Source: Fictibacillus phosphorivorans (GTDB lineage Bacteria > Bacillota > Bacilli > Bacillales > Fictibacillaceae). Taken from it: 64,000 nt of DNA. The notes beneath the pieces are model-generated. The model saw only the letters and a program-made list of their open reading frames with translations. It had not been told where the DNA came from and searched no databases. Where the stretch lies: NCBI RefSeq assembly GCF_001629705.1, contig NZ_CP015378.1:3286001-3350000 (forward strand), given 5' to 3'. How positions within the stretch are numbered: the first letter of the stretch is position 1; each line of letters opens with the position of its first letter. The translations under genes were made by a program, and so were the position numbers. Below, piece by piece: positions 3,071 to 51,873 of this stretch.

Positions 3071-3758
3071 GAAGCATGCTCCCTTCTCTTAAATAACCGT
3101 CTCTAATTTCCACTTTTCGATGAGCAATTGAAGCTACTTCATGGTCGTGTGTGATGATTAAAAATGTAATTCCATCTTTTTCATTCAATTCTTTTATAAA
3201 GTTTAATAGTTCTTTTTCGTTCTCAGAATCAAGACTACCTGTTGGTTCATCTGCCAAGATAAGAGGCGGATTCAAGATTAGTGCACGGGCTATACTTACG
3301 CGTTGCTGCTGACCTCCTGAAAGTTCTCCCGGATAGTGGCTTTGATACTGCTCAAGTCCGACCCTCTTTAACATTTTCATCGTTTGGTCTTTTCTATCTT
3401 TTTCGCTAACGCCTTTAAGTACCAATGGAAGTTCTACATTTTCATAGGCAGTCATGCTAGGAATCAGCTGAAAGCTTTGAAAAATAAAGCCTAGATGCTC
3501 TAAACGAAATTCAGCCCATTTTGATTCAGATAGTTTGCTGACCTGCTTTCCATCAATCACGATCTCTCCTGTTTGCGACCTAATAAAGCCAGAGATTAAG
3601 TTTAATAGAGTCGACTTTCCTGATCCGCTTCTTCCTATGATCGCTACAATTTCACCTTCTGCTACTTGCAGATCGACATGATGCAGAACCGGTACGACAT
3701 TCTCTTTTTCTTTCTTACCAATTTTGAACGCGTATGATAAATCCCTTACAGATATCAT
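3054..3758 (-). CDS. MacB/LolD-type ABC transporter ATP-binding protein
   Basis: This 234-residue protein has a complete ABC ATPase domain: Walker A GRSGSGKST (about residues 42-50), the LSGGQQQR signature, Walker B LILADEP and the switch His in IITHDHEV. The spacing and the ENVELPL block are typical of the LolD/MacB subfamily, which pairs with FtsX-type permeases such as the next gene. It is first in a two-gene operon. A sigma-A promoter lies about 50 bases upstream. RBS and ATG are normal. Confidence 0.92.
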   Translation of the reverse strand: MISVRDLSYAFKIGKKEKENVVPVLHHVDLQVAEGEIVAIIGRSGSGKSTLLNLISGFIRSQTGEIVIDGKQVSKLSESKWAEFRLEHLGFIFQSFQLIPSMTAYENVELPLVLKGVSEKDRKDQTMKMLKRVGLEQYQSHYPGELSGGQQQRVSIARALILNPPLILADEPTGSLDSENEKELLNFIKELNEKDGITFLIITHDHEVASIAHRKVEIRDGYLREGSMLHEVQR

Positions 3759-3917: not shown

Positions 3918-5555
3918 ATGTTAAAGTGGCAAACAAAAGAGGGATACAAGAAATTATTAAAAGATTTGGTCTCGATCCCTAGCATTACCCATCACGATGG
4001 AGAACTGTTTATGGCGGAGCACCTCCACCATACGCTCTCATCACTAGACTATTTTTCGAAGCATCCTGATTACGTTCGCCATCATCCACTTCCAGATGGT
4101 CGAAAACTGATCACAGCATTTGTACAGAACGATCCTTCAATCAAAGAAACAATTATTCTGCTTAGTCATTTTGATGTTGTTTCAGTCGAAGATTTCGGGG
4201 AATGGAAGCATCTCGCATTTCGGCCAGAAGAACTAACTGAAAAGATCATCGAGAACAAAGAGCTACTTCATACCTTTGTTCAGGATGATCTGAATAGCGG
4301 CGATTGGCTCTTTGGTCGCGGCATCATGGATATGAAAGCTGGAGTTGCCCTTCATATGTCTATGATTGAAAAAGCAACAACCGGTCATTTTAAAGGAAAC
4401 GTACTCATGATTTCTGTTCCGGATGAAGAAGTTCATTCTGAAGGAATGCTTGCGGGTGTCAGTGTTTTACGACAATTGCAAGAGGAGTATGATATCAAAT
4501 ACATCACATGTTTGAACGGAGAACCAAGCTTCACAAAATATCCTGGAGACACTTCTTCCTATATGTATACAGGATCCACAGGAAAGATACTGCCTGGTTT
4601 TCTATGTTATGGCAAAGAGACTCACGTAGGTGAGCCACTTGCAGGTATGAACGGAAATGTGATGGCTGCTGAGATTACAAGAGAACTAGAATGGAACGTT
4701 GATTATGTAGAGAAGTTTCGTGAGGAGGCTACTCCTGTACCAACCAACTTGATCCAAAAAGATTTAAAGGATCACTATTCTGTGCAAATACCACACGCAG
4801 CTGTAACGCTGTTTAATCTTATGTTGTTTAATCGATCGCTATCCGATATTACAGATATGTTAATAAGTAGTGCAAAAAGCGCAGCACTTCGATTAGAAGA
4901 CCGTCTCTTTGAAAGAAGCAAAAATGTCTCTAAGATCGTACCTTTCACTCCGAAAAAAGAAAAAATCAAAGTACTGACTTTTAATGAACTCTATGAACAT
5001 GCCGTAACGAAATATGGACAAGAAGAGCTTGATCGCAGAGAGAACATGCTTCAGACAAACAATCCGAACGCAGATGAGAGAGAGCTGACGATACAATATG
5101 TATTTGAGTTAGCAAGCCTTTGCAGAGACATTTCTCCGATGATCGTCTTGTTCTACACACCGCCTTTTTATCCAGCTGTATGTTCAAGCGAACATCCGCT
5201 TATTAAAGCCACTTCTGATGAGGTAGTCAATCATGCGAAAAATACGTTCAACAGCGAACTCGTTAATGTCCACTATTTTAGTGGCTTATCTGACTTGAGT
5301 TATATTGGATTTCATGGAGATTCTCGTGACCTGTCATCTTTCACAAGTAACTTCCCATTACTAGGATCTCGCTATCATATACCGTTTGATGATATGAGAG
5401 AACTCGATATCCCGGTCATTAATATCGGTCCACTCGGTAAGGATGCACATCAATGGACAGAACGGCTTGAGATCAACAAAGTTATGGATGAAACGCATCC
5501 GTTAATCATATTTGCGATGGAAACTTTATTTGATCAAGCAAAAAACCAGATCTGA
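3918..5555 (+). CDS. rocB: M20-family metallopeptidase, RocB-like
   Basis: This 545-residue cytoplasmic protein resembles RocB, the M20-family protein linked to arginine utilisation in B. subtilis, whose exact reaction is not settled. M20 hallmarks are visible: ILLSHFDVVS with the metal His and Asp, GRGIMDMKAGVALHM with the bridging Asp, and SVPDEEVHSEG with the catalytic Glu-Glu pair. It is longer than typical M20 exopeptidases (about 400 residues) and close to the roughly 565 residues of RocB. CTAGGAGGT lies 6 bases before the ATG. It stands alone, divergent from the ABC operon, with no other roc genes visible, so the arginine role is inferred from family only. Confidence 0.8.
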   Translation: MLKWQTKEGYKKLLKDLVSIPSITHHDGELFMAEHLHHTLSSLDYFSKHPDYVRHHPLPDGRKLITAFVQNDPSIKETIILLSHFDVVSVEDFGEWKHLAFRPEELTEKIIENKELLHTFVQDDLNSGDWLFGRGIMDMKAGVALHMSMIEKATTGHFKGNVLMISVPDEEVHSEGMLAGVSVLRQLQEEYDIKYITCLNGEPSFTKYPGDTSSYMYTGSTGKILPGFLCYGKETHVGEPLAGMNGNVMAAEITRELEWNVDYVEKFREEATPVPTNLIQKDLKDHYSVQIPHAAVTLFNLMLFNRSLSDITDMLISSAKSAALRLEDRLFERSKNVSKIVPFTPKKEKIKVLTFNELYEHAVTKYGQEELDRRENMLQTNNPNADERELTIQYVFELASLCRDISPMIVLFYTPPFYPAVCSSEHPLIKATSDEVVNHAKNTFNSELVNVHYFSGLSDLSYIGFHGDSRDLSSFTSNFPLLGSRYHIPFDDMRELDIPVINIGPLGKDAHQWTERLEINKVMDETHPLIIFAMETLFDQAKNQI

Positions 5556-50394: not shown

Positions 50395-50515
50395 ATATCA
50401 GCAACTTTTTTGTTATATCGGCGAAAATGAGTATTTTATCGGCAACTTTCGAATTATATCGGCAAGAATTTAAATATATCGGCGAAAATCAAAATATATC
50501 GACATTTGCACAAAT
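50395..50515. repeat. 20-bp tandem repeat, six degenerate units
   Basis: Units start at 50395, 50415, 50436, 50456, 50476 and 50496, so the period is 20 with one 21. The core is ATATCGGCRAAAATNNNNAT. The array lies between the NERD gene start and the tmRNA terminator. Confidence 0.75.
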
Positions 50516-50524
50516 TCAGCATAC

Positions 50525-50553
50525 AAAAAAGGACTCACCTTGGGGCGAGTCCT
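50525..50553 (-). terminator. Terminator of ssrA
   Basis: On the minus strand, AGGACTC / GAGTCCT with a G/C-rich loop is followed by TTTTTTG, 17 bases after the tmRNA 3' end. Confidence 0.88.
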
Positions 50554-50569
50554 GTTATCCACCTATGTA

Positions 50570-51206
50570 TGGTGGAGACGGTGGGACATGTTATTCCATG
50601 CTTTCGTCATGGCACTGACTATATCTTGAACCTGAAGAATCAGGTTCTTCGGCGTATTATACGAAATATAAATTTACTTGATTCCAAGCAGACATTTCGT
50701 ATCCTAGTACTACCAAAAATGGCAGCCTATAAGTCGATACACGGCTGTTGGATTACTCCACATACCGCTCGGCATTGCCTTGCAACGATAAATGTTGGTT
50801 AGGTTTCACCGATAAAGCCGAATTATCACTTATGTGTTACCACATAAGGCGACTAAATATTAATCGAACCCACGTCCAAAGATATTGGCACTTAAGCTTC
50901 TACGAGTGTAGTCGGTTCATTCGCGTTTCGCGGATCCGTCTGCCAGCCGACAGGCGCCTGGACCGCTAGCCTGATTATTCTCTTCCTTCGTCCTCAGGCG
51001 GAGGACAACCGGCGTAGCCCACTAAGAGTGAGTCCCTTACCCTACCACATGGGCGATGGAGGGAGGAACAGCTAAAGTGCTATTACGCAGCTAAAGCTAA
51101 GTTGTTGTTTTGTTTGCCAGTTATTGGCTGTGGCGTTTTAACGAGGCCGACCCCCTCGACTCGCAACTTAAGCTCAAACTACCCCTGTCGAATCCGTAAC
51201 GTCCCC
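50570..51206 (-). ncRNA. ssrA: tmRNA (ssrA), interrupted by a group I-like intron
   Basis: On the minus strand the 5' end reads GGGGACGTTACGGATTCGAC and the 3' end ACCGTCTCCACCA, which form the alanyl acceptor stem. The tag frame at 51118-51083 encodes GKQNNNLALAA then TAA, a Bacillus-like degradation tag. The gene spans 637 bases, but the T-loop is split: GTGGGTTCGAT at 50873-50863 and TCCCAC at 50586-50581 are 276 bases apart. Removing the insert leaves 361 nt, close to the 363 nt that I recall for B. subtilis tmRNA, and restores a normal T arm. tmRNA with SmpB rescues stalled ribosomes. The gene lies downstream of smpB but has its own promoter. Confidence 0.95.
50587..50862 (-). other. Group I self-splicing intron in the tmRNA T-loop
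   Basis: The insert has the expected signals, read on the minus strand. The 5' exon ends in U (CGAT) and the intron ends in G (AACATG). Intron GTCG (50853-50850) pairs with exon CGAT through a U-G wobble at the splice site (P1). A perfect P2 hairpin CTTATGTG-GTAA-CACATAAG has a GNRA loop. The S element AAGATATAGTC (50627-50617) can form P7 with GACTTATA upstream. A P8-like hairpin AACCTGA-TTCT-TCAGGTT stands just before S, and a P9-like hairpin with a GAAA loop follows it. No endonuclease gene fits in 276 bases. I recall reports of group I introns in tmRNA T-loops of some Firmicutes. Confidence 0.88.
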
Positions 51207-51290: not shown

Positions 51291-51319
51291 AGTATAACAT
51301 TTTTGCTTCATCTTCTCAA
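51291..51319 (-). promoter_or_regulatory. Sigma-A promoter of ssrA
   Basis: On the minus strand, TTGAGA (51314-51319), a 17-base spacer and TATACT (51291-51296). Transcription would start about 78 bases before the mature 5' end, leaving a leader for RNase P to remove. Confidence 0.75.
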
Positions 51320-51345: not shown

Positions 51346-51813
51346 TTAAGCTTTTTGGCGATCTCGGAATGCACGCTCGATCTCTCGCTTTGCATCCTTT
51401 TTCTTCAGATCGTCACGCTTGTCGTAATGCTTTTTCCCTTTTGCAAGTCCAATCAAAAGCTTCGCAAAACCATTCTTTAAATACATTTTCAAAGGAACGA
51501 TAGAGTAACCTTGTTCTTTGGTTGCACCTAATAGCTTGTTGATCTCTTTGCGGTGTAAAAGCAGCTTGCGCGTACGAAGTGGATCATGGTTGTACCGGTT
51601 TCCTTGCTCGTATGTGCTGATGTGCATGTTGTGTAGAAACAACTCGCCATTTTGCACACGTGCAAAGGAATCTTTTAAATTTGCCCTGCCTGCGCGAATG
51701 GATTTGATCTCCGTGCCCTGAAGGACAATTCCTGCTTCAAATGTTTCTTCGACGTGGTAATCGTGCCGCGCTTTCTTATTCTGTGCGACTACTTTCCCTT
51801 CTCCTTTTGGCAT
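51346..51813 (-). CDS. smpB: SsrA-binding protein SmpB
   Basis: This 155-residue protein has the SmpB OB-fold: [65 protein letters not shown] and [23 protein letters not shown] blocks. A basic C-terminal tail enters the mRNA channel. It binds tmRNA and is required for trans-translation. ATG at 51813 is chosen, because GGGGAGG lies 12 bases before it; a GTG at 51834 overlaps that same RBS. It sits between rnr and ssrA, the usual order in bacilli. Confidence 0.97.
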
Positions 51814-51873
51814 GTAAAACTCAATCCTCCCCACAGCAAGTGAAGTTTAATTATAGCAATATGGTCAAATAAC

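Follow-up and report, generated by a model that had tools for sequence, protein, structure and literature searches.

A predicted group I intron in the tmRNA gene of Fictibacillus phosphorivorans and its gain and loss among relatives

The window analyzed here is a 64,000-nucleotide stretch of the Fictibacillus phosphorivorans genome. On its minus strand lies ssrA, the gene for tmRNA, which releases stalled ribosomes; it is interrupted in the T-loop by an insert between loop nucleotides 6 and 7. The 5' exon (51206-50863, 344 nt) holds the acceptor 5' strand GGGGACG, the tag reading frame, the T-stem 5' strand, and T-loop nucleotides 1-6. It is followed by the predicted group I intron (50862-50587, 276 nt) and the 3' exon (50586-50570, 17 nt), which contains T-loop nucleotide 7, the T-stem 3' strand, the acceptor 3' strand CGTCTCC, and an encoded ACCA. 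The insertion point reads GGGTTCGAT / intron / TCCCAC, which is the subsite between loop nucleotides 6 and 7. The acceptor stem pairs at all seven positions when G.U is counted, as scored in locus L011, whose ends are identical. The third acceptor pair of the window ssrA is a G.U wobble, which we take to be the alanine mark, in tRNA terms. The tag reading frame encodes GKQNNNLALAA followed by two stops (51080..51118, minus strand).

The gene for the tmRNA partner protein, smpB, lies directly upstream of ssrA on the same strand (51349..51834; PF01668, 220.8 bits). Shortly 3' of the 3' exon is a terminator-like hairpin with a T run (50530..50553, minus strand), although one such hairpin was found compared to 0.8 expected in shuffled sequence. 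Upstream of ssrA is a promoter-like site, TTGAGA-17-TATACT with a TG before the second hexamer (51291..51319, minus strand). This is a weak signal, as two such sites were found on both strands of the region around ssrA and 2.1 were expected. Between a NERD-domain gene and ssrA, the motif ATATCGGCRA occurs three times within 71 bases (50415-50485); the window has no other exact match (0.11 expected).

The Rfam tmRNA model RF00023 matched 51198-50861 on the minus strand with 168.8 bits (cut-off 47). It covers neither strand of the acceptor stem and lacks the 3' strand of the T stem. When the exons were joined, ARAGORN called one tmRNA of 361 nt with the tag GKQNNNLALAA and its two stops. ARAGORN called no tmRNA in the unspliced gene and no gene in the whole window, and an ssrA absent from its output on the window is here confirmed base by base. 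An earlier, sequence-only reading of this DNA had given the coordinates, strand, exon ends, 276-nt insert, 361-nt joined length, and tag frame; the sequence and ARAGORN agree with it to the base.

The group I intron model RF00028 matched 50872-50596 on the minus strand from end to end (model positions 1-253) with 37.8 bits and an E value of 6.9e-8. The gathering score of RF00028 is 50 bits, a threshold set by curators and not a property of the family, and since the window match scores below it, the intron is absent from a default-threshold listing. The Rfam search that the sequence-only reading had suggested therefore gave a tmRNA match over its cut-off and a group I match that is significant by E value but under its own. 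As a control, 13 other loci with a tmRNA intron were searched. RF00023 was found in all 13, while RF00028 reached an E value of 0.01 in five (30.9-47.6 bits) and its cut-off in none. These data suggest that the general model is a poor detector of this type of intron and show the 37.8 bits of the window to be in line with other introns of this type. Across the genome (4,230,665 bases), with 138 of 295 first-look candidates scored, RF00028 reached an E value of 0.001 at two places, the window locus and one other. The matches to the tmRNA and group I models adjoin in the T-loop, which supports the reading of an intron within ssrA. The ORF list contains no open frame of 60 or more amino acids on the minus strand inside 50587-50862, and thus no endonuclease frame. 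Matches to Betaproteobacteria_toxic_sRNA, SNORD36, and CRISPR-DR57 fell below their own cut-offs and were taken as chance.

The fold drawn for the window intron comprises P1, P2, P3, P4, P5, P5a, P6/P6a, P7, P7.1, P7.2 with an inner hairpin, P8, and P9. For the pair counts, 38 of 39 distinct tmRNA intron sequences were aligned. The remaining intron, that of L108 / G033, is 430 nt long compared to 270-308 nt for the other 38, and it was omitted from the alignment and the intron tree due to its length. Standard pairs fill 97.8% of the 3040 alignment cells (38 introns, 80 pairs), and 31 of the 80 pairs have changes on both sides. Five measures were compared with 500 shuffles of the partners, and no shuffle equaled the observed value on any of them; this control is inflated because the aligned introns are related. 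Sliding the partners by 1-3 columns lowered pairing from 97.8% to 33-41%, a control that favors the fold because the fold was derived from one of the aligned sequences.

At the 5' splice site, P1 (50850..50866; all helices are on the minus strand) pairs exon CGAT (50866-50863) and intron TAA with TTAGTCG (50856-50850). Six of its seven pairs are invariant in all 38 introns and the outermost, the seventh, fails in 17, leaving 93.6% paired overall. The wobble at the splice site, T50863 with G50853, is U.G in 38/38 introns, and every intron ends in G, here at 50587. The P2 hairpin (50829..50848) has a GUAA loop, is paired in 100% of cells, and shows both-side changes in three of eight pairs. The 5' strand of P3 (50817..50822) pairs with 50653-50648 and varies on both sides at four of six pairs. 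P4 (50812-50807 with 50774-50769) has one such pair in six, and four of the six never vary; P5 (50803-50801 with 50780-50778) has none in three, while all four pairs of P5a (50797-50794 with 50786-50783) changed on both sides. In P6 and P6a (50741..50768), the latter with a GUAA loop, the count is four of 10. P7, the guanosine-binding helix of group I introns, pairs GACT (50732..50735) with AGTC (50620-50617) and is paired and invariant in 38/38.

Between P7 and P3 lie extra helices, P7.1 (50725-50710; both-side changes in two of six pairs) and P7.2 with its inner hairpin (50702-50659; six of nine and four of four pairs, respectively). Helices at this position are presumably a mark of subgroup IA, so we call the window intron IA-like. 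The hairpin inside P7.2 is paired in just 84.9% of cells; helices other than it and P1 are 96-100% paired over the 38 sequences. P8 (50647-50628) has both-side changes in three of eight pairs. It is followed by AAGATATAGTC (50627-50617), named the S element in the sequence-only reading, which contains the 3' strand of P7 and is identical in 37 of the 38 aligned rows, with C for T in the other. The P9 hairpin (50612-50596) has a GAAA loop and both-side changes in none of five pairs. Two further elements were judged by eye and lie outside the pair count: for P9.0, pairing is possible between GTG (50615-50613) and CAT (50590-50588), which directly precedes the terminal G, and P10 has at most one pair. 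The U.G wobble, 3'-terminal G, GNRA hairpins (P2, P6a, and P9), and S element noted in that reading are thus all present. Since P7, six of the seven P1 pairs, and four of the six P4 pairs are invariant, they give no support by covariation. The predicted pseudoknotted P3/P7 core with P4-P6 and P8 is supported by covariation, with P7 itself invariant.

Introns of this kind are well documented. PMC11915505 describes 883 unique intron-form tmRNA sequences, all with the insertion in the T-loop and most at position 7. They are predominantly from Bacillota, and those at position 7 occur in 21 phyla. Borders of a -1 U and a terminal G are reported for all but 15 of them, and an endonuclease gene for 36 of the 883 (4.1%). 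The window intron shares with the position-7 introns the gene, the subsite, the -1 U paired to G in P1, and the terminal G. It is also like the class described there in being short (276 nt compared to a mean of 293), in lacking an endonuclease gene, in having a P7.1 region, and in coming from Bacillota, as most do. There is no difference in kind. The sequence-only reading had described such introns as rare and noted in a few Firmicutes, a view that is outdated given the 883 genes, the 21 phyla at the main subsite, and the presence of the intron in 24 of 71 loci parsed here from the best 80 of 581 (below). The window ssrA is a typical case of a class already published for hundreds of bacteria, and not a rarity. 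Similar in layout is a construct of the tmRNA gene of Clostridium botulinum, with a 338-nt 5' exon, a 287-nt intron, and a 24-nt 3' exon. PMC2729099 uses this intron and states that it was earlier shown to self-splice. It belongs to another genus and its splicing is reported, whereas that of the window gene is predicted. Other group I introns of Bacillota sit in protein-coding hosts: a review of bacterial group I introns names those in flagellin, recA, and nrdE genes of the Bacillus group, and the word tmRNA is absent from its main text, as far as that text was accessible (PMC3984707).

Over the single contig of the genome, RF00023 exceeded its cut-off once. The other 15 RF00023 listings comprise 14 of tRNA size (76-93 bases) and one that covers 18 bases. 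A pseudogene at this locus accompanied by an intact ssrA elsewhere, which the sequence-only reading had named as grounds for rejecting its proposal, is therefore ruled out.

Relatives were collected as family genomes and as loci of named species. The latter are the best 80 of 581 loci confirmed by SmpB; 71 could be parsed, and the nine without a pattern-parsable ssrA enter no count. Judged by SmpB, members of Fictibacillus are the nearest named relatives among the best 80, and the SmpB of F. norfolkensis is 100% identical over 155 residues. ssrA is present in 33 of 34 family genomes. BLAST found the intron in 18 of these 33, and parsing likewise gave 18 with the intron at the same base and 15 with an exact empty site. 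Of the 71 parsed named loci, 24 have the intron and 47 do not. The introns of the four closest congeners are 95-97% identical. The one family genome without ssrA, G001, is a congener draft in 110 contigs that gave no ssrA match among the 31 of 50 candidates scored and no smpB match. An assembly gap is the most likely explanation; a joint loss of ssrA and smpB, if true, would be notable. Two other observations concern individual loci. Peribacillus huizhouensis (L041) has two ssrA copies, at 3284 and 4394 and thus 1.1 kb apart, neither of which has an intron and both of which have T as loop nucleotide 6. The tree includes the first copy. In Cytobacillus firmus (L066), ssrA has the intron and is followed about 1.4 kb downstream by a fluoride riboswitch (5110-5170; 58.5 bits, cut-off 34).

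A phage or plasmid source of the intron was also considered. With all 637 bases as the query, blastn found no record covering 80% of it in the phage and plasmid collections. The 10 phage and three plasmid-collection records that matched did so with parts of the 5' exon alone, within query positions 1-343, and such a source was rejected on this basis. An exact 32-base core pattern had no matches in viral contigs, but it is so strict that it would miss most relatives.

Next to its hosts, the intron behaves differently at close and wide range. Distances between introns correlate with distances between host flanks both within the genus (11 intron-bearing genomes, r 0.79) and within the family (17 genomes, r 0.72), each with 1 of 9999 permutations as high. 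This favors vertical descent or exchange among close relatives. On a tree of the flanking smpB/rnr region, the intron state of the 33 family loci needs six changes compared to a shuffled mean of 11.1, and none of 500 shuffles was as low, so the intron is clustered in this set. The 71 named loci (from the best 80 of 581) need 18 changes, of which supported branches force at least 13. Here the shuffled mean is 20.2 and 78 of 500 shuffles were as low, so the intron is hardly clustered, which speaks against a purely vertical history. The host trees come from a short region with long branches and the intron tree is weakly resolved (four of 14 inner branches well supported), making all of these counts approximate.

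The base at loop nucleotide 6, directly before the insertion point, differs between the two states. It is T in every intron-bearing locus (18/18 family, 24/24 named, 42/42 pooled) and C in most intronless ones (14/15 family, 41/47 named, 55/62 pooled). The named loci and family genomes overlap, so the pooled 42 and 62 count some genomes twice; for example, L095, L099, and L103 carry introns identical to the ones in L011, L012, and L017. T with the intron is expected, since the intron needs U there for its U.G pair. We know of nothing that requires C in the intronless loci, and C may be the older state. On supported branches, base and intron change together in an average of 5.5 of six independent contrasts for the family (median sign-test p 0.06) and 9.9 of 13 for the named loci (median p 0.002). 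The opposite direction was never seen, and no difference was found in 0.5 and 3.1 contrasts on average, respectively. Put in whole numbers, nine or 10 of the 13 named contrasts change jointly and three or four show no difference.

Within the genus, the comparison can be made between nearly identical genes. The joined exon has 26 variable sites over 17 genomes, our own included. The one-piece ssrA of intronless congeners resembles the 361-nt joined exon of the window but has C instead of T at loop nucleotide 6 (e.g., L112 of G003), and the joined exon of G003 differs from those of the intron-bearing G002 and G014 at this base alone. Conversely, the intronless G010 has kept T, and its joined exon is identical to that of the intron-bearing G009.

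These findings add to the published class a repeated, base-coupled gain and loss of the intron among relatives. How this happens is less certain. One possibility, which we consider less likely than not, is that in Bacillaceae and near kin, loop nucleotide 6 marks an intron-permissive (T) and an intron-resistant (C) allele, and that the intron comes and goes mainly through exchange of short DNA stretches between ssrA alleles, which carries the base along. In this view, precise excision at the RNA level would play little part, since it would leave T behind. Alternatively, the intron may be lost first and T changed to C later. G010, with T and without the intron, fits this order of events or a recent precise loss. 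Because the splice-site base switches together with the intron, the way in which the intron is gained and lost can be tested in a genus with both states. The open-access texts searched, as far as accessible, contain no statement of a C/T switch at this base in intronless relatives; early reports were beyond reach, and novelty is not claimed.

Taken with the fold and the joined exons, the model matches support the proposal of the sequence-only reading that this is a group I intron in the T-loop of a tmRNA gene. Very likely, this is a functional ssrA gene with a primary transcript that contains a small predicted group I ribozyme and would be spliced to a working tmRNA. In the proposed course of events, the intron would fold into P1-P9 with P7.1 and P7.2 and bind free guanosine in P7. 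The RNA would be cut after U50863, paired to G50853 in P1, and the exons joined at the G50587/U50586 border. The product would be a 361-nt pre-tmRNA with a T stem and an acceptor stem able to pair, which should allow its maturation, charging with alanine, and work with SmpB. The insert encodes no homing endonuclease. Its history tracks that of its hosts within the genus, and at wider range it is often lost, gained, or exchanged. If it splices as proposed, a gene central to bacterial translation can carry an intron of the self-splicing type that comes and goes among close relatives.

If splicing works in this way, trans-translation should need it. The sequence-only reading had extended this dependence to ribosome rescue in general. 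However, the genome also encodes a full-length NFACT/RqcH-type protein (PF05833, 566 bits). Bacillus subtilis can do without ssrA, and RqcH acts in another pathway related to rescue. Given the RqcH-type protein, a full dependence of rescue on splicing is too strong a claim, and rescue as a whole perhaps does not require it. That reading had also raised a link between trans-translation and GTP levels, which is speculation. In such a scheme, splicing would be a regulated checkpoint, responding for example to guanosine or GTP, that sets the supply of tmRNA. General group I chemistry is all that speaks for it. Close congeners with an almost identical exon lack the intron, the changes of state forced among the named loci speak for a dispensable element, and the RqcH-type protein offers another rescue-related pathway. 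We regard such a checkpoint as very unlikely.

It is extremely improbable that the intron is a decayed insert that no longer splices, with ssrA a pseudogene. The RF00028 score below threshold would fit decay, but low scores are common to the sister loci. Moreover, the joined exons retain the tmRNA parts and tag, pairing in the helices is maintained over the 38 sequences (with P1 and the P7.2 inner hairpin the least complete), the introns of the closest congeners are well conserved, smpB is intact, and no other ssrA is over the cut-off. Finally, an intervening sequence removed by proteins, as in the permuted two-piece tmRNA, is less likely still: its one sign, a truncated match to the permuted-tmRNA model RF04321 (31.6 bits, cut-off 47), is under the cut-off and weaker than RF00023 over the same bases, the gene order is standard, and the insert shows a complete group I fold supported by covariation, together with U.G / terminal G borders. 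A permuted tmRNA was rejected because this match is truncated and under the cut-off.

Group I intron-like RNAs were also seen near flagellin genes. In our own genome, a second such RNA (L010 1501-1739, minus strand; C1:3510338-3510576) scored 26.2 bits against the cut-off of 50. It lies about 20 nt after the stop of a putative FliB-like ORF, which had no Pfam match, and 1.4 kb downstream of an intact flagellin gene. By eye, it is followed by a degenerate copy of the flagellin 3' end, and it resembles a displaced intron of a flagellin gene. In congeners, a group I intron sits right at the flagellin stop codon (L142 1306-1718 in G014; L143 1500-1990 in G002), and L144, L145, and L146 are alike by BLAST. 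It scored 72.1-74.6 bits in L142, L143, L144, and L146. On its 3' side, the sequence coding for the flagellin C terminus occurs again. The frame of L142 ends in AQSQQTPQGVLQLLR if left unspliced, and the repeated end behind the intron gives QANQQPQGVLQLLR, so a complete C terminus might result with or without splicing. A further group I intron is found in the flagellin region of L143 (2001-2345, minus strand; 88.5 bits) and L146 (1989-2339, minus strand; 91.2 bits), upstream of a stretch coding for MAKEMM, which makes two introns per locus.
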